57,749 nucleotides of DNA from Sandaracinus sp. (GTDB taxonomy: Bacteria > Myxococcota_A > Polyangia > Polyangiales > Houyiibacteriaceae): contig PABA01000067.1 in NCBI GenBank assembly GCA_002699025.1, positions 1 through 57,749 of the forward strand, read 5' to 3'. Positions 19,795 through 33,804 of this stretch are shown one piece after another. A model generated the notes under the pieces. That model did no database searches. It saw nothing but the letters and a program-made list of their open reading frames with translations, and had not been told where the DNA came from. The first letter of the stretch is position 1. The number at the start of each line of letters is the position of its first letter. The position numbers and the translations under genes are program-made.

Positions 19795-20098
19795 CGGGGG
19801 GTGTCGGGGTTTCGCCGCCGCAGGCGACGAGCCCGCCTTCGGCGGGCGGGGGTCGGGGGACTGGGGCGAGGTGGACGGGTGGGAAGCGGGGTCGCTCTTC
19901 GAGCCCCGCGGGCGGCGGCGCGGGGGTCGGGGGATCGGGGGATCGGGGTTTCGTCGCCGCAGGCGACGAGCCCGCCTTCGGCGGGCGGGGGTCCGGGAAC
20001 TGGGGCGAGGTGGATGGCTGGGAAGCGGGGTCGCTCTCGTAGCCCTCGCGGGCGGCGGGCGGGGGTCGGGGGTTCGTCGCCGCAGGCGGTGAGACGCT
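19795..20098. repeat. Hairpin-rich direct repeats upstream of the GT-C gene
   Basis: About 300 bp with two full copies and one part copy of a unit of about 139 bp. Each begins GGGTTTCG(T/C)CGCCGCAGGCGACGAG (containing the palindrome GTCGCC-GCA-GGCGAC) and continues with CCCGCCTTCGGCGGGCGGGG (stem CCCGCC/GGCGGG) and GGGAACTGGGGCGAGG. The same family occurs at 21583-22030 on the other side of the gene at 20137. No gene is present. Confidence 0.8.
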
Positions 20099-20136: not shown

Positions 20137-21582
20137 GTGCCTGCCGCTCGTCCGACTCGCGCCGCCTTCCCCTGGGGGCGCCTCGCCCTCTACGGCGCCG
20201 TGCACGGCGCGCTGGGCGCGCTCTTCCTCCTCGCGGGCCCGTACGCGGCGACGGCCTTCCCGCTCGACGACGCCTACATCCACCACGTCTACGCGGAGGG
20301 CGTCGCCTTCGGGGAGGGCTTCGCCTACAACCCGGGCGCGCCGGCGAACGGCGCGACCAGCCCGCTCTGGGTGCTCCTCCTCGCGCCGCTCCGCCTCCTC
20401 GGCCTCCGCGGCGCCGCGCTCGTCCTGCCGACCAAGCTCCTCGGGCTCGCCCTGGGCGCGCTCCTCGCGCTCGTCGCCGACCACCTCGCCGCCGCCCTCG
20501 GCGCCTCCCCGAAGGCGCGCTTCGCCGCCGGGCTCCTCGTCGCGGCGAACCCGCTCGTCGTCTACGGCGCCGTCTCGGGCATGGAGCTGCCGCTCGCGAG
20601 CCTGCTCCTCCTCGCGGCGCTCCTCGCCCTCGCGCGCCGGCGCCTCCTCGCCGCCGGCCTCGCGCTCGGCGCCGGCATCCTCGCGCGCCCGGAGCTCACG
20701 CTCGCCTGGCTCTTCGTCGCGGGGCTCGAGGGGCGGCGCCGGCGCGCGCCCCCGCCGACCGCGCTCTGGCTGCCGGGGGCCCTCGTCTGGGCCGTCTGGA
20801 TGGGGCGCTCGCTCCACGTCGCCGACGCCTGGTTGCCGACGACCTTCGCCGCGAAGCACGACGCCGCCGGGCTGGCGCAGTGGGTGGACGTGCCCTGGGC
20901 CGCGCTGATCGCGCTCGGGGGACCGCTCGCGATCGTCACCCTGCCGCTCGGGGTGCTGGCGATCCGGCGCTGGTGGCGGCGGCCCTCGACGGCGCGGATG
21001 GCGGCGCTCGCGCTCCTCGTCTTCCTCCCCCTCGGGGTGGCCTGGGCGCACGACATCGCGGAGCCGACGCGCTTCTTCTGGTGGCGCTACGGCGCGCCGG
21101 TGCTGCCCCTCGCGCTGGTGATCGCGGCCTGCGGGCTCGACGCGCTCCCGGCCCCGCGCCGGGGGCTGGCGGCCGGGGCGGCGCTGCTGCTGGGGCTCGC
21201 CTTCGCCTGGCCGGCGGCGCGGGACCAGGCCGAGCACGCGCGGAACATCACCGAGCTCAACGTGGCGGCGGCGCGCTGGCTCGAGGAGCGGGTGGGCGAG
21301 CGGGACTGGCTGGCGAGCAACGACGCCGGGGCCGTGCGCCTCCTGACCGAGCGGCCGGTGGTCGACCTCATCGGGCTCAACGATCACCGCATGCGGACGC
21401 CGGCGCGGGCCGAGGTGCTCGAGGCGGCCGACCCGCGCTACTACGTGGTCTTCGAGAGCTGGTTCCCGAACATGGTCGCGAGCCCGCGCTTCCGCGTGGT
21501 GCGGCGCTTCCGCTCGGAGCCCTACGTGGTGTGCCGCGAGTGCGCGCAGTCGGAGCTGCTCATCCTCGAGCGCGTGCGATAG
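20137..21582 (+). CDS. GT-C fold integral membrane glycosyltransferase-like protein
   Basis: 481 aa with about 10 hydrophobic helices. The first periplasmic loop has the Asp-Asp motif typical of GT-C enzymes (FPLDDAYIHHVYAEG, Asp44-Asp45) followed by GEGFAYNPGAPANGATSPLWVLLLAP, a phrase common in GT39/GT87-like and AftB-like proteins. NPLVVYGAVSGMELPLAS and ILARPELTLAW add to the match. A soluble C-terminal domain (about 370-481) includes WLASNDAGAVRLLTERPVVDLIGLND. These enzymes use polyprenyl-phosphate sugars at the outer face of the inner membrane. Donor and acceptor cannot be predicted, and no other glycan genes are nearby. GTG start at 20137. Confidence 0.75.
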   Translation: MPAARPTRAAFPWGRLALYGAVHGALGALFLLAGPYAATAFPLDDAYIHHVYAEGVAFGEGFAYNPGAPANGATSPLWVLLLAPLRLLGLRGAALVLPTKLLGLALGALLALVADHLAAALGASPKARFAAGLLVAANPLVVYGAVSGMELPLASLLLLAALLALARRRLLAAGLALGAGILARPELTLAWLFVAGLEGRRRRAPPPTALWLPGALVWAVWMGRSLHVADAWLPTTFAAKHDAAGLAQWVDVPWAALIALGGPLAIVTLPLGVLAIRRWWRRPSTARMAALALLVFLPLGVAWAHDIAEPTRFFWWRYGAPVLPLALVIAACGLDALPAPRRGLAAGAALLLGLAFAWPAARDQAEHARNITELNVAAARWLEERVGERDWLASNDAGAVRLLTERPVVDLIGLNDHRMRTPARAEVLEAADPRYYVVFESWFPNMVASPRFRVVRRFRSEPYVVCRECAQSELLILERVR

Positions 21583-22030
21583 GCGGCCTTTGGCCGCGGG
21601 GGGCGGGGTTTCGTCGCCCACGGCGACGAGTGGCCTTCGGCCGCGGGGTCCGGGAACTGGGCCGAGGAGAGCGGGTGGGGGGCAGGGTCGCTCGTGAGGC
21701 GGCCTCTGGCCGCGGGGGGCGGGGTTTCGTCGCCGCAGGCGACGAGCGGCCTTCGGCCGCGGGGGTCCGGGAACTGGGCCGAGGAGAGCGGGTGGGTGGC
21801 GGGGTCGCTCGTGAGGCGGCCTTTGGCCGCGGGGGTCGGGGTTTCGTCGCCGCGGGCGACGAGCGGCCTTCGGCCGCGGGGGTCGGGGAACTGGGCCGAG
21901 GAGAGCGGGTGCGTGGCAGGGTCGCTCGTGAGGCGGCCTTTGGCCGCGGGGATCGGGGTTTCGTCGGCGGGCGGGCGCGCGGGGAACTGGGCCGAGGCGA
22001 GCGGGGGGACGGGGCCGCTCGTCGTGGGCA
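21583..22030. repeat. 116-117 bp direct repeats downstream of the GT-C gene
   Basis: Four copies, the last truncated, with TTTCGTCG at 21609, 21725, 21842 and 21959. Each full unit carries GTCGCCGCAGGCGACGAG, CGGCCTTCGGCCGCGGGG and GGGAACTGGGCCGAGGAGAG, and ends GGGTCGCTCGTGAGGCGGCC, giving two stem-loops per unit. The family is the same as at 19795-20098. From 22031 to 22241 I see nothing beyond ordinary GC-rich spacer before rimO. Confidence 0.88.
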
Positions 22031-25012: not shown

Positions 25013-25711
25013 TCAGCGCATGTTCGCCCGGTCGAGCGTCTCCTGGGCGCGATCGACGGCCTCGTCGGCGGCCATGCCCACCGTCCCCTCCAGGATCGCG
25101 TCGGCCATGGCGTTCGACTTCAACGCGATCTCGAGCTCGCCGTCCGTGACGCGGATCGTGCCACCGCCATCCCGAGGCACCTCGATCTCGAAGGTGCAGT
25201 GGAGCGTCTGCGCCTCGAACCGGTCGCACTCGAGGGGCGGGTCGCGGAACATCGCCACGTGGCGCTCGCCGCCCTGGACGTAGACGAAGCTCGGCAGCCG
25301 CATGGCGGCGCGGATGTCCCGCCCCCGCACGGCGCTCCGGATGTCATGGGCGAAGCGGGCCGGATACTCGACGTCGCGGACGTCCCAGCCGGTCAGCAGG
25401 ATCTCGACGCCGTGCTCCTCCTCCGGCCCGTCGAAGGCGGCGAGGACGGTCGTGCGCGAGGTCGCCTGGTTTCGGTCGGCCTCGAGGTGCTCGAAGCGGT
25501 GCGCCTCCCCGTCGATGGTCGCGCGGATGAAGCCCTCGGTCATCTCCGGGCCCTCGTCGACGGGCGCCGCCGGGGCCTCGCTCTCTGCCTCCGCCGCCGG
25601 AGCGCCCGTGGAAGGCGCGGCCGCCGGGGCCGGCCCGGGCTCGTCCTCGCTGCAGGCCGAGCTCACGACGAGGGGGGCGAGGAGAGCGACGAAGGAGAGG
25701 TGGAGGCGCAT
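25013..25711 (-). CDS. Hypothetical lipoprotein
   Basis: 232 aa. Signal peptide to LVVSSACSEDEPG (lipobox Cys about 20) and an Ala/Pro/Glu linker to about residue 58. The mature domain begins EGFIRATIDGEAHRFEHLEAD, has beta-rich phrases (VEILLTGWDVRDVEYPARF, SFVYVQGGERHVAMFRDPPLECDRF, LHCTFEIEVPRDGGGTIRVTDGELEIALKS) and ends in a helix (ADEAVDRAQETLDRA). The two cysteines in LECDRF and LHCTF may pair. Not recognised. ATG 25711 chosen for the signal peptide. Confidence 0.78.
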   Translation of the reverse strand: MRLHLSFVALLAPLVVSSACSEDEPGPAPAAAPSTGAPAAEAESEAPAAPVDEGPEMTEGFIRATIDGEAHRFEHLEADRNQATSRTTVLAAFDGPEEEHGVEILLTGWDVRDVEYPARFAHDIRSAVRGRDIRAAMRLPSFVYVQGGERHVAMFRDPPLECDRFEAQTLHCTFEIEVPRDGGGTIRVTDGELEIALKSNAMADAILEGTVGMAADEAVDRAQETLDRANMR

Positions 25712-25901
25712 GGGACGACGCTCCCACGGGGCGCGTCGGCGACACAAACCGCGAACGGGGGCGGCGCGACGGGAATCGCGTCGCGCGCCGCGCAGATCGG
25801 GATCCGGCTCGCGGCCGCGACGCGATGGAGCCTCCGGACGAGGGGCTCGGCTCGTTCCCCCCATCCCTCACCAGCAGGCGAGGGCAGGGGTCGTGTTCCG
25901 G

Positions 25902-28073
25902 CTACATCCCCGCCGGCACGGTCCCCACGATCGCGAGGTCCGCCACCGCCGAGTCCTCCCGCACGTCCAGCGGCCGCGCCAGCTCGAAGCTCAGCGCGAA
26001 GCCGTCCAGCTCCGGCGCGATGCCCGTCAGGTCGCCGACCTCCAGCGCCGGCAGCTCCAGCGAGAGCCCGTCCATCACGGCCCCCCGCAGCTCGGGCCAG
26101 AGCTGATCCCGCAGGATCCCCTCGAGCCCCTCCTCGTTGATCGGCGGCCGTGCCTCTGTGGACTCGATGATCCACGTCCGGATGAACGGCTCCTCGTCGA
26201 CGTTCAGCACGATGGCGCCGTCCACGATGTCGAGCGTCACGCCCGCCTCGATGGTCACGCCGAAGCGCGTGTCCGCCCCGAGCGCGTTCAGCTGGAGCTC
26301 CGCCTGACCCAGCGCCAGCACCAGGTCGGTCGTCTCCGCCCCCCGCGCCGGCCGGATCACCGGCGGCAGCTTCCCGCTCAGGTCCGCGCCCATCACCAGC
26401 CCCGCCAGGTCCTCCGGCAAGATGGCCGTCGCGTCGATCTCGAGCAGCCCGCTGTTCCAGAGCGTGTGGAGCAGCCCGTTCAGGAGCGCCACCTTCATGC
26501 CGAGCTGCACGGGCGTCGTCTCGAAGAGCGGGTCGGTCACGCCGACCAGGTCCGCCGCGCCCCGGCTCTCGGGCCAGGCCGGCGTCGCGTCCGTGCTCAC
26601 CGTCATCTGCAGCGGCGTCCGCATCCAGCGCCGGTAGCGCGTGTCGATCGAGGCCACGCGCCCGTCCAGCTGAATCGTCACCGGCGGGAAGAGCTCCGTC
26701 TCCAGCGGGATCGTCTGATCCTGGAGCGCCGTGTCGAGCGAGCCGATCGCGTCCGCGAGCACCGCCGGGATCGCGTCGAGGAGCGAGTCCCCGAAGGCGT
26801 CCCGGAGCTGGTCCTCGAGCGTCGAGCGGAGGAGCCCCTCGGCGAGCTGCAGGATCGCGTTCGCCTCCGCCGAGCGGAAGCGCCCCTCGACGTCCTCGAT
26901 GGCGATGGTCAGCTCCTCCACGGACGCCTCCACCGGCGCCTCCGGGCCCGCCTTCGACACGTCGAGGCGCGCGAAGGCCGAGAGGCTCGCCGTCAGCCCG
27001 CCGCCGAGGTCCAGCATGGTCCCCTCGAACTCGAGGTTGCCCACCGTGTCCGCGTCCAGCGTGCCGATGCGCAGGAAGAGCTCGGCGCCCCCCTCGACCA
27101 CGTCCACGACCACGTCGATGTCGCTCGTGCGCACCTCCGTGATGCGCAGGAAGAGCGTCGGCGCGTTGTCGATCACGGGGTCCGGCAGGAAGCCCCGGAA
27201 GTCCACGTTCTGCAGGACCAGCTCGAAGATGTCCGCCAGGTCCTCCGTCCGCACCGGGTCCGCCATCGTGTCGAGGGGCTCCCCATCGTCGAAGAAGCGC
27301 TGCCCGAGCTGGAGCGTGATGCCCTCACCGAAGGTCACCTCCGGGCGCGTCCCCTCGGAGTCCATGGCCGGCCGGTAGTCCTCCGCCCAGAGCACGTCCA
27401 TCTCCACGCGCGCGTCCTCGGTCACGCCGTCCGACGCGACCACCTCGATGTGGTTGATGCCGAAGAGCGCCGGCAGCTCGGTCCGGAAGGCGCCCATCTC
27501 GTCGAGCTCCACCGTCGAGCCGTTCACGAAGACCCGCAGCGTGCCCGCGCTCGTCTCCGTGTCCGCCACCGAGCCCTCGACCACGATCGCCGTGGCCTCC
27601 CCGCCGCCGAGCTCGGCGCCCGGGGTCGGCGAGGTGACCTCGAGGTTCGGCGCGCCCGCGTCGACGAAGATCTGCGCGAAGTCGCAGAGCGGCTCCTCGC
27701 CGGAGGGGCCCGCGCGCACGGTGCAGGCGTTGAACTGGATGCGCCCCTCGGTGGTCAGCTCGAAGACGCCCTCGCCCATGTCGGCGGCGGCGTCGTCCTC
27801 GACCGAGAAGACCACCTCGGCGCCCTCGATGATCTCCTCGTCGATGTCGATCACCTCGACCTCGAGCCGCACGCTCTGGCCGATGCGGTAGGCGCTCCGG
27901 GCCGGGGCCACCGTGACCTCGATGCCGAAGGGCACGGGGCCGTCGGGCCCGCCGTCGAGCCGCGGCCCGGCGTCGGGGAGGCCCATGCCGTCGTCGTCCC
28001 CACAGGCGCCGAGGAGGGCGAGGGCGAGGGCCGGGAGCAGGAGCAGGCGTCGCGTCGTCGTCATGGCGTTCAT
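25902..28073 (-). CDS. Lipoprotein with Ig-like domains and predicted TULIP/BPI-like domains (paralogue 2)
   Basis: 723 aa. Lipobox LALLGAC (Cys24) and a short Asp/Gly linker. A Big/Ig-like domain (about 45-125) and a second beta-sandwich (about 135-230: APNLEVTSPTPGAEL, FGINHIEVVASDG) follow. The last 480 residues have the alternating strand and amphipathic-helix pattern of TULIP lipid-binding proteins, twice: LQLAEGLLRSTLEDQLRDAFGDSLLDAIPAVL with PLETELFPPVTIQLDGRV, then VQLGMKVALLNGLLHTLWNSGLLEIDA, LSGKLPPVIRP, LQLNALG, and a closing GLEGILRDQLWPELRGAVMDGLSLELPALEVGD. It is homologous to the gene 10 bp upstream. ATG 28073 is preferred over GTG 28082 because GAGG lies 8 nt before it. The TULIP assignment is a fold prediction by pattern, not by search. 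Confidence 0.78.
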   Translation of the reverse strand: MNAMTTTRRLLLLPALALALLGACGDDDGMGLPDAGPRLDGGPDGPVPFGIEVTVAPARSAYRIGQSVRLEVEVIDIDEEIIEGAEVVFSVEDDAAADMGEGVFELTTEGRIQFNACTVRAGPSGEEPLCDFAQIFVDAGAPNLEVTSPTPGAELGGGEATAIVVEGSVADTETSAGTLRVFVNGSTVELDEMGAFRTELPALFGINHIEVVASDGVTEDARVEMDVLWAEDYRPAMDSEGTRPEVTFGEGITLQLGQRFFDDGEPLDTMADPVRTEDLADIFELVLQNVDFRGFLPDPVIDNAPTLFLRITEVRTSDIDVVVDVVEGGAELFLRIGTLDADTVGNLEFEGTMLDLGGGLTASLSAFARLDVSKAGPEAPVEASVEELTIAIEDVEGRFRSAEANAILQLAEGLLRSTLEDQLRDAFGDSLLDAIPAVLADAIGSLDTALQDQTIPLETELFPPVTIQLDGRVASIDTRYRRWMRTPLQMTVSTDATPAWPESRGAADLVGVTDPLFETTPVQLGMKVALLNGLLHTLWNSGLLEIDATAILPEDLAGLVMGADLSGKLPPVIRPARGAETTDLVLALGQAELQLNALGADTRFGVTIEAGVTLDIVDGAIVLNVDEEPFIRTWIIESTEARPPINEEGLEGILRDQLWPELRGAVMDGLSLELPALEVGDLTGIAPELDGFALSFELARPLDVREDSAVADLAIVGTVPAGM

Positions 28074-28083
28074 CGCGTTCACC

Positions 28084-30834
28084 TCAGAGCGTCCCGAAGT
28101 CGCCGCGGAGCACGAAGTGCTGCGGCTCGTTCGCCAGGGAGGGAGAGCGGATGCCGAGCTCCGTGCCGCGCGGCACGCCGAAGGTGCTCAGCGAGTCGGG
28201 CAGCGCGAAGGAGGGCACGGGGAGCGCCGGCAGCGCGTCGTTCAGGACGTTGTCCACGATCGACTGCACCAGCGTGCGGAGGAAACGCTCGAGCACCTCG
28301 CGGGTCGAGGCGTCGAGGCTCACGTCGCCGGTCGAGAAGCTCAGCTCCTCGATGGTGATGTCCTCGAAGCTCAGGTCGTTGCCCATCAGCGCCACGTTCG
28401 TGGTCGCCCGCGCGCCGAGCGTGACCCGGATCGGCTCCTCGAAGAGCCCCGGGTAGACCAGCGCCAGGTCGAGGGCGCCGATGCCGATCTGCACGAAGTC
28501 GCCCTCGGGGCCGCTGATCATCTCCGCGACCGGCGGCAGGCGCCCGTTCAGGTCCGCCGTCAGCCCCTCCGGGAGGCTCCCGCCGAGCGCGTCGCCGGTG
28601 ACCGTCCCGTTCAGGAGCCCACCGCGCCAGACCGCATGCGTCACCTGGTTGAAGAGCACCGAGTGGATGCTCACGCCCATGGATTGGCTCAGGGCCGGGT
28701 CGTCGAGGAAGGAGGGCGAGGCCCCGGGCGGGATGGCTACGCCGAGGCTCGGGGTGCCGATGGCCGTCGGACCCCGGAAGCGCGTGCCGATGCCGACGAG
28801 GAAGCGCGAGGGGGTCGTGCTCACGGACGAGAAGCCGACGCCGAAGCTGATCGGGATCGGGTCGCCGCCGCCGAGGCTCGGCACGTCCAGGCTCGTCCCC
28901 AGGCTCGAGATGTCCAGGCCGGCGACGACGCCGTCGAGGATGTCGTTGAAGTTGTCGCGGATGTAGTCGCGGAGGAGGTTCTCCACCGTGCTCCGGAGCG
29001 TGCCCTCGGCGAGGTCGGCGACGATGTTCACCACCGCGCCGTCGAGCCCGCTGAAGCTCGTGTCGACGCCGCCGATGCTCACGTCGACCGTGCCCGGGCG
29101 CACGGTGATGCGCGGCCGGCCGCCCGAGAGGGTGATGTCGAAGATCATCGACACGCGCGGGTCGTCGAAGGTGACCCAGCCCTCCGTGTCGAAGGGGATG
29201 CCGATGACCCGGCCACGCACCCGGAGCCGCACGCGCAGCCGATCGAAGGCGACGCGCGCCGAGAGGCCGCCGTCCACGAGCCGGAGCTCCACCGACTTCG
29301 AGCCGGACAGGTCGAGGCGCTGGTAGTCGACCCGCGAGCGCACGGTGCAGGAGCCGAAGGGCCCGCCGACGTCGCAGCTGTCGGCCTTGAGCGGGTTCGA
29401 GTCCGAGAGGGCGCTGTCGAGCGTGCTGGCGAGCCCGTCCGAGTCGAGCACGGTCTGCAGGAGATCCCCGAGCGAGTCGATGCCGCCCGAGCGGTCCCCG
29501 TCGTCGATGGCGTCCTGCCGGAGCTTCAGCGAGACCGTGTTCCCGAGCACGTCGTCCGGATCGGCCCAGACGTCCGAGGCCAGGAAGGTGCAGGTCTGGC
29601 TCGACTCGGCGCCGAAGCTGTCGATGGCCGTGATGTCGACGAAGTTCATGCCGAAGCGCGCCGTCACGGGCACGCTGAAGGTGCCGTCGGCGCTCAGCGT
29701 CGCGACCTCGCCGTTCACGACCACCACGTCCGTGCCGCTCGTGTCCGAGACCTCGCCGGAGAAGGTGACCGTCCCGCCGGGCGCCACGTCGACCATGGCG
29801 CCGTCGGCCGGGCTCGTGCACTGGATGGAGGGGCCGTTGCCGTTGACGACGATCTCCACCGAGCCCGTGAGCGGCACGTCGCCCTCCGTGGGCGGCGCGA
29901 CCGTCGCGGTCACGACGTAGGTGCCGTCCGCGTCGTAGCGGAAGCGGTTGCGGCCGAGCGTGGAGCCGGGCGGCTCGCTGACGAAGGCCACGTCCGCGTC
30001 GGGGATCGGGTTGTCGTAGACGTCCGTCACCGCGGCGACCACCTCGACCACCTGGCCGATGGCGTAGACCGGCTGATCGGGCACCTTCGCGAGGGCCAGG
30101 GTCGCCGGCAGGGAGGGCGTGACCTCGACCCGCTCGGGCACGCTCGCGGCGCCCGCGAGCTCGCAGCTGACGTCGTAGGTCCCGGCGCGCGTGAAGGTCG
30201 TCGTCAGCCCGTCGGAGGTGTTGCCCTCGTCCATGGGCTCGACGCTCACGCTCGGCTCCGCGTCCTCGATGCGGTTGCCGAAGGCGTCGAAGACGTCGCA
30301 GCTCGCCGTGACCGTCCCGCCGGCCTCGACGCTCGAGCGATCCACGGAGGTGACGACCTCCGCCGGGTCGCCCGGGAGGATGCGCACGACGGCCGGGCTC
30401 TCGTCGGTGAGCATCAGGTCCGAGAAGGCGCAGCTGATCTCCACCTCACCGGCGCGCGCGGCGATGAGGCTGCCGTCCATGCGCTCGATGGAGGTCTCCG
30501 GGGAGACGCGGTAGGTCGGCGTGCGCCCGGCCGACGAATAGAGCTCGCCGCTCTCGTCGAGGATCAGGCAGCTGACCATGATCACCTCGCCGGCGCGCAC
30601 CTCCTCCGGCGCCATGGTCTGCACGAGCACCGGGTTCGGCACGTCGACCGGCGCGAGCCCGCCGTCCGGGAGCAGGTTGCCCCCGTCGGTCGTGGGCATC
30701 GGCCCGTCGTCGTCCCCGCAGCCGGCCCCGAGGGCCAGCAGCGCCGCGAGGGCGATCGACCCGATGAGAGAGGACCCCGAGAAAGAAAAGCCTGCACGCA
30801 TGGCGCGGCGGCGGATGGGTGAAGACCCCCGCAT
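28084..30834 (-). CDS. Large lipoprotein with Ig-like domains and predicted TULIP/BPI-like domains (paralogue 1)
   Basis: 916 aa, first gene of a two-gene operon. ATG 30834 has GGAGGT at 30841-30846. Lipobox LGAGC (Cys39) then DDD. About three Big-like Ig domains (60-330), each with a VRAGEV-, VEAGGT- or YAIGQVVEV-type opening strand. A beta-sandwich follows (PSIQCTSPADGAMV, FGMNFVDITAIDSFG), matching the same module in the paralogue. The C-terminal 480 residues have the TULIP-like pattern: VNIVADLAEGTLRSTVENLLRDYIRDNFNDIL, then VSIHSVLFNQVTHAVWRGGLLNG, LNGRLPPVAEMISG, IGIGALDLALVYPGLFEEPIRVTLGARAT, LERFLRTLVQSIVDNVLNDALPALPVPSFALPDSL. The second block closely recalls the C-terminal barrel of BPI/LBP. 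Likely a surface or periplasmic hydrophobic-ligand carrier. Lipid ligand unknown. Confidence 0.8.
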   Translation of the reverse strand: MRGSSPIRRRAMRAGFSFSGSSLIGSIALAALLALGAGCGDDDGPMPTTDGGNLLPDGGLAPVDVPNPVLVQTMAPEEVRAGEVIMVSCLILDESGELYSSAGRTPTYRVSPETSIERMDGSLIAARAGEVEISCAFSDLMLTDESPAVVRILPGDPAEVVTSVDRSSVEAGGTVTASCDVFDAFGNRIEDAEPSVSVEPMDEGNTSDGLTTTFTRAGTYDVSCELAGAASVPERVEVTPSLPATLALAKVPDQPVYAIGQVVEVVAAVTDVYDNPIPDADVAFVSEPPGSTLGRNRFRYDADGTYVVTATVAPPTEGDVPLTGSVEIVVNGNGPSIQCTSPADGAMVDVAPGGTVTFSGEVSDTSGTDVVVVNGEVATLSADGTFSVPVTARFGMNFVDITAIDSFGAESSQTCTFLASDVWADPDDVLGNTVSLKLRQDAIDDGDRSGGIDSLGDLLQTVLDSDGLASTLDSALSDSNPLKADSCDVGGPFGSCTVRSRVDYQRLDLSGSKSVELRLVDGGLSARVAFDRLRVRLRVRGRVIGIPFDTEGWVTFDDPRVSMIFDITLSGGRPRITVRPGTVDVSIGGVDTSFSGLDGAVVNIVADLAEGTLRSTVENLLRDYIRDNFNDILDGVVAGLDISSLGTSLDVPSLGGGDPIPISFGVGFSSVSTTPSRFLVGIGTRFRGPTAIGTPSLGVAIPPGASPSFLDDPALSQSMGVSIHSVLFNQVTHAVWRGGLLNGTVTGDALGGSLPEGLTADLNGRLPPVAEMISGPEGDFVQIGIGALDLALVYPGLFEEPIRVTLGARATTNVALMGNDLSFEDITIEELSFSTGDVSLDASTREVLERFLRTLVQSIVDNVLNDALPALPVPSFALPDSLSTFGVPRGTELGIRSPSLANEPQHFVLRGDFGTL

Positions 30835-31176
30835 GAGCACACCTCCGAAGAGCACGCGACGAAAAACGAACCCCGTTCTCCGCCGACCCCGACGCGTCGA
30901 GGGTATCGGGCTTCGCGCCGATCCGGCAAACGATGGAGGCGGATCCCTACGCCCCACGTGTAGGCGGATGTGCGACCTGCGCGGTCCCGCGCGCGCCGCC
31001 CGAACGGGCTCCGAGCCGCGGCGACACCATCGGGTCGGGAAGGCCCCATCGAATGCCGCTCATGGCGTGGGGAGAAGCGCCGTTGCCCCACCCGGCTGCC
31101 CTCTCTAGAGTCCGGATCCGGAGACCCGGGCCGCGCCGCTCCCGCGCCGCCCGCTCCAGCGGAACACGAGCCCCCG
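30835..31176. other. Divergent spacer between the TULIP-like and Ccm operons
   Basis: 342 bp with no gene. It holds the GGAGGT ribosome site of the minus-strand gene (30841-30846), an interrupted inverted repeat CCTAC...GTAGG at about 30947-30965, and short A-rich patches (30863-30870). No confident -35/-10 pair. Confidence 0.5.

Positions 31177-33800
<2,624 letters not shown>

Positions 33801-33804
<4 letters not shown>

Follow-up and report, generated by a model that had tools for sequence, protein, structure and literature searches.

The window, the whole stretch of 57,749 nucleotides that was analysed, is DNA of a myxobacterium-like bacterium and contains two adjoining genes for predicted lipoproteins, both on the minus strand, as are all of their parts given below. 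Gene 1 (type 1; 28084-30834) encodes a protein of 916 aa made up of a lipobox, four Ig-like modules, and a predicted BPI-like two-barrel region, and gene 2 (type 2; 25902-28073) encodes a protein of 723 aa with a lipobox, two Ig-like modules, and a region of the same kind. The stop codon of gene 1 (28084-28086) is separated from the ATG of gene 2 (28073) by a gap of 10 nt. Each protein starts with a hydrophobic signal that ends in a lipobox-like cysteine, i.e., Cys39 in gene 1 (LALGAGC39; 30718-30834) and Cys24 in gene 2 (LALLGAC24; 28002-28073), so that the two open reading frames, their lengths, and their lipoprotein character are as the original prediction described them. By the lipobox, which also occurs in most of the relatives examined for either type, both are predicted bacterial lipoproteins, with acylation read from the sequence. 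Acidic residues follow the cysteine in both proteins, and the motif GDDDG leads into an acidic, Pro/Gly-rich linker, which in gene 1 is rich in Asp as well and in gene 2 is similar. As position +2 carries no known retention signal, the two proteins would be anchored in the outer membrane.

The surroundings of the pair have features of their own. Downstream and on the same strand lies a small lipoprotein-like open reading frame (25013-25864; MRLHLSFVALLAPLVVSSAC...), which gave no meaningful Pfam or NCBIfam match and is not kept beside the pair in relatives. On the other side, in divergent orientation, a single open frame on the plus strand (30970-33804) contains CcmF (Cytochrom_C_asm, CcmF_C) and CcmH domains and looks like a CcmF-CcmH fusion. 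Farther away, a tandem intergenic repeat with a unit of 117-139 nt and palindromic pieces flanks the open reading frame 20137-21582 on both sides (19795-20088 and 21581-22022); the repeat unit has 67 matches dispersed over the genome from which the window comes. A promoter and terminator scan found no such elements.

Recognition of either protein by Pfam is confined to the Ig-like part, and an NCBIfam scan of both proteins gave nothing relevant. Modules 1-3 of gene 1 (residues ~66-331; 29842-30639) are Big_1/PKD-like with weak Big_1 and PKD matches, and are kept in relatives. Module 4 (residues 333-421; 29572-29838) resembles glucodextranase domain B (PF09136, E 9e-11), and its model matches 1ug9 and 3pdg. 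The two modules of gene 2 (27381-27938) are equivalent to modules 3 and 4 of gene 1 according to Pfam, BLAST, and the model, whose Ig-like part superposes on 1ug9 with Z 11.6 and 1.6 Å over 81 residues. The Ig-like modules suspected earlier in both proteins are thus recovered, since Glucodextran_B passes the Pfam cut-off in each (E 6e-7 in gene 2), next to weak Big_1, Big_7, and PKD matches.

The two proteins are related to each other by BLAST (25% identity over 604 positions, E 2e-28), with the match beginning at the third Ig-like module of gene 1. The pair therefore arose by duplication, gene 1 having two extra N-terminal modules. The two-barrel regions of type 1 and type 2 are homologous throughout (hhalign 99.7%, E 4e-25). 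The description of the two as paralogues that differ mainly by the number of Ig domains therefore holds for their architecture, but not for their C-terminal parts, which have strongly diverged (~25% identity).

The C-terminal regions comprise 487 residues in gene 1 and ~480 in gene 2. Structures were predicted with AlphaFold2 without templates, from shallow alignments of window and locus sequences (A3 with 17 rows for gene 1 and A4 with 12 rows for gene 2; relatives are 22-61% identical to gene 1 in the folding alignment). Mean pLDDT and pTM were 85.3 and 0.77 for gene 1 and 86.4 and 0.76 for gene 2. In VIA-align comparisons, BPI was the top match of both models (gene 1: Z 19.3, 420 residues, 4.5 Å; gene 2: Z 18.8, 413 residues, 4.2 Å, both barrels together), followed by LBP (Z 17.9 and 18.2, respectively) and CETP (Z 14.8 and 15.5), with superposition on BPI-type structures at 4-5 Å rmsd. 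Single-barrel TULIPs, such as Der f 7, SPLUNC1, the juvenile hormone binding protein, and Mdm12, and Ig domains score clearly lower. Foldseek was concordant (E 1e-20 for gene 1 and 3.6e-15 for gene 2).

In gene 1, the N-terminal barrel (residues ~430-647; 28894-29547) was delimited from the model against BPI and the four single-barrel proteins just named, and the C-terminal barrel (residues ~648-916; 28087-28893), with the motif NxxxHxxWxxG, reaches the last residue of BPI in the model. The corresponding barrels of gene 2, placed by comparison of its model with BPI, are formed by residues ~244-450 (26724-27344) and ~451-720 (25914-26723). Since the matches span BPI residues 1 to 456, they cover both barrels and the joint between them. 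In a BPI-like pseudodimer, two tandem barrels meet head to head, and in each of them an antiparallel sheet is wrapped around a long helix; both models have the expected order of strands and helices together with the full-length superposition on BPI. Across the family, hydrophobic and polar residues alternate in several barrel strands, and several long strands show no such alternation. The BPI/LBP-like two-barrel pattern that had been read from the sequence is borne out in both proteins, and the structural comparison with BPI, CETP, and Takeout proposed at that time was positive for each, as a whole two-barrel boomerang. On these models, both proteins almost certainly adopt the TULIP fold, although likeness of fold alone is no proof of function.

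Independently of the models, a sequence relationship to animal proteins is also detectable. The type-1 family profile matched the PDB sequences of LBP (E 7.2e-5) and BPI (E 0.013) over the N-terminal barrel, and hhalign aligned the same barrel with two BPI/LBP fragments (E 0.001, 21%). A search of the PDB sequences with the single window proteins gave nothing useful, and the type-2 family profile alone gave no significant match to BPI or LBP. Type 1 is thus related to a known TULIP directly, and the link of type 2 to such a protein runs solely via type 1, its homologue. The Pfam LBP_BPI_CETP family was weakly matched by four of 17 type-1 members (best E 0.0069); formal membership (PF01273/PF02886) was rejected, as members fall below the curated cut-off where a score is shown. 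That the first barrel of type 1 lies near enough to animal LBP for a simple profile search bears on the origin of BPI-like proteins.

Relatives were collected by protein searches of 57 related genomes and one scan of a species-level genome collection. Full-length relatives on named contigs come from Myxococcota, namely Sandaracinaceae, other Myxococcales MAGs, and Lujinxingia vulgaris. Outside this phylum, the search covered the peptide patterns of the scan and the plasmids, and the plasmid collection gave no match to the family. Among 377 Myxococcota genomes, a barrel-only type-1 profile (A5), which includes single-Ig relatives, found matches in 183, and a type-2 profile (A6) gave 62 strong matches in 48. 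In 53 of these 62 cases, the gene immediately upstream of the type-2 gene is of type 1 and has the same orientation, and the two barrel regions are 654-1159 nt apart. Eight of the remaining nine cannot be counted, because the contig ends within ~120 nt of the match or cuts the start of gene 2. The ninth, a divergent second copy (G269:C126), is preceded by only 267 nt of contig, in which no type-1 end was found, and may be a true exception. Hence, 53/54 testable type-2 genes are paired with type 1. In the loci of the full-length relatives, a gene 2 homologue directly follows a gene 1 homologue in nearly all that are sufficiently long.

Type 1 and the single-Ig relatives also occur alone. The latter form a third class, in which tandem hexapeptides (IVGPSM, IVAPDM) are inserted in the C-terminal barrel region after HxxWxxGG (L018, 1951-2061; L023, 2898-2991; also L022, L024, L026, and L030). 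As the hexapeptides are encoded by 18-nt tandem DNA repeats, their copy number may vary between strains.

Seven genomes of family f38 (G086, G106, G115, G154, G249, G281, and G299) have at least two complete type-1/type-2 pairs at separate places, so that the pair has been duplicated as a unit. No genomic partners beyond the pair were conserved across the loci of relatives, so that the pair itself is the unit. Kinase genes recur near some copies; kinases are abundant in Myxococcota. The earlier suggestion of a link to predation gains nothing from this distribution, as the family occurs widely across the phylum without conserved neighbouring genes. Because the same two genes are kept adjacent in related bacteria, they very probably work together.

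On the basis of a fold, an architecture, and a pairing that are well supported, we propose that the two proteins are co-operating, envelope-anchored lipid-binding proteins, a reading to which we give a probability of about 60%, and the same applies to lipid binding and transfer as their main job; the membrane side, the ligand, the partnership, and transfer are what we infer. The acylated N-terminal cysteine would tether each protein to a membrane, and the flexible acidic linker and the Ig stalk, of four modules in one and two in the other, would hold the barrels away from it. The hydrophobic interior of the barrels could then shield the acyl chains of a phospholipid, a fatty acid, or another hydrophobic molecule, and the two proteins, unequal in reach, may pass lipids to each other or between their own membrane and a facing one.

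One alternative is that the proteins are scavengers that replace absent fatty-acid synthesis in prey-dependent bacteria by feeding prey lipids to FadL-type transporters. It draws on Lujinxingia, a member of the Bradymonabacteria: L. vulgaris carries the pair, and within its family fabF was found in none of the 17 genomes that have the pair. FabB/F and FabI are reportedly absent from Bradymonabacteria, which have many copies of fadL (PMC7460792). However, fabF is present in the window genome and in 29/31 paired genomes outside the L. vulgaris family, which makes scavenging of prey fatty acids at most lineage-specific. The gene is absent from 19/48 paired genomes versus 90/329 others (Fisher p 0.09, ignoring phylogeny). 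As a general role, replacement of lost fatty-acid synthesis was therefore rejected, and we regard the scavenger explanation as unlikely.

Alternatively, the proteins might have a structural or adhesive role at the surface, with a BPI-like fold that no longer binds lipids and makes protein-protein contacts on an Ig stalk. Some TULIP-fold proteins may act via protein binding instead of lipid movement, adhesins typically have Ig-like stalks, and the hexapeptide insertions of the single-Ig relatives would suit such a role. However, the two-barrel architecture is kept whole, and some amphipathic strand alternation with it, at 25-60% identity, and a unit of two such proteins fits the function of a tube better. 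We consider adhesion quite improbable as the explanation of the pair.

The charge of the barrels bears on LPS binding of the BPI type. The N-terminal barrels of the window proteins have net charges of -10 (type 1) and -30 (type 2), and the family medians for the two barrels are -10 and -12 in type 1 and -28 and -21.5 in type 2. The N-domains of BPI and LBP are not strongly negative, unlike the barrels of the pair. Although BPI and LBP are the closest fold and gene 1 has an arginine-rich strand (RLRVRLRVRGRV, residues 532-543) that HMMER aligns with BPI/LBP residues ~85-105, a BPI/LBP-like clamp, in which a basic barrel tip would hold LPS or anionic lipid headgroups, either the cell's own or those of prey, is quite unlikely. 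The window proteins and most relatives have two acidic barrels, with no basic N-terminal barrel like that of LPS-binding BPI/LBP, and only 5/25 relatives have their most basic segment at the arginine-rich strand. A conserved LPS-binding strand was rejected, since this strand is not kept across the family. Thus, from the functional suggestions of the original prediction, the lipid-carrying tube stays plausible and LPS binding of the BPI type is disfavoured.

If the two proteins are indeed co-operating lipid binders, their tight pairing offers a concrete system for lipid traffic in the diderm envelope, one that extends to prey-dependent bacteria unable to make their own fatty acids. A bolder version, which we hold to be doubtful, is a surface lipid relay in Myxococcota, where long- and short-stalked BPI-like lipoproteins would act as functional counterparts of LBP and CETP, drawing lipids from other cells, either prey or kin, and handing them across the envelope.

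With this pair, the bacterial TULIPs gain a stalked BPI-type family, found widely in a single phylum, nearly always paired where this is testable, and absent from Pfam and NCBIfam annotation. The view that bacterial TULIPs have seldom been described no longer holds, as widespread bacterial families have been reported (PMC6791001). Among them, DUF4403 is a bacterial BPI-like pseudodimer, described alongside YceB, DUF2140, and DUF2993 (Levine 2019; PMC6791001). A literature search for TULIP lipoproteins of Myxococcota found no paper. DUF4403 was found by Pfam in 11/57 related genomes and not in the window genome, and its Pfam model matched neither window protein nor the family members scanned. 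Membership in DUF4403 was rejected on this ground and on hhalign probabilities of 0.2-0.5% against a set of 12 DUF4403 members from related genomes; as the hhalign profiles are shallow, the two families may still share a remote ancestor. We therefore treat the pair as a separate, apparently undescribed family of the same kind as the known bacterial BPI-like TULIPs.

Several known systems share parts of this design. The Ig-like modules of both proteins resemble glucodextranase domain B and other bacterial Ig-like domains (PF09136, PF02369, PF17957), but would form a stalk here and are not attached to an enzyme. P47 and OrfX (5wix, 6ekt, 8bgm) are also bacterial TULIP-fold proteins, but they are clostridial, have neither a lipoprotein signal nor an Ig stalk, and give a weaker structural match (Z 8.7-9.2). 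YceB/DUF1439 (3l6i) is, like the pair, an envelope lipoprotein with a TULIP barrel, but it has a single barrel without an Ig stalk and appeared only as a weak Foldseek match (E 0.004). DUF4403 (PF14356; ~460 aa) is likewise an envelope-located BPI-like pseudodimer, with a short linker of 20-25 aa (PMC6791001) in place of the Ig stalks of the pair. The closest likeness is to BPI, LBP, and CETP (PF01273 and PF02886; 1bp1, 1ewf, 4m4d, 2obd), which share the two consecutive barrels over their full length (Z 15-19; 390-420 residues aligned at 10-13% identity). In contrast to these animal proteins, the members of the pair are predicted bacterial lipoproteins on Ig stalks, are encoded together, and have acidic barrels.
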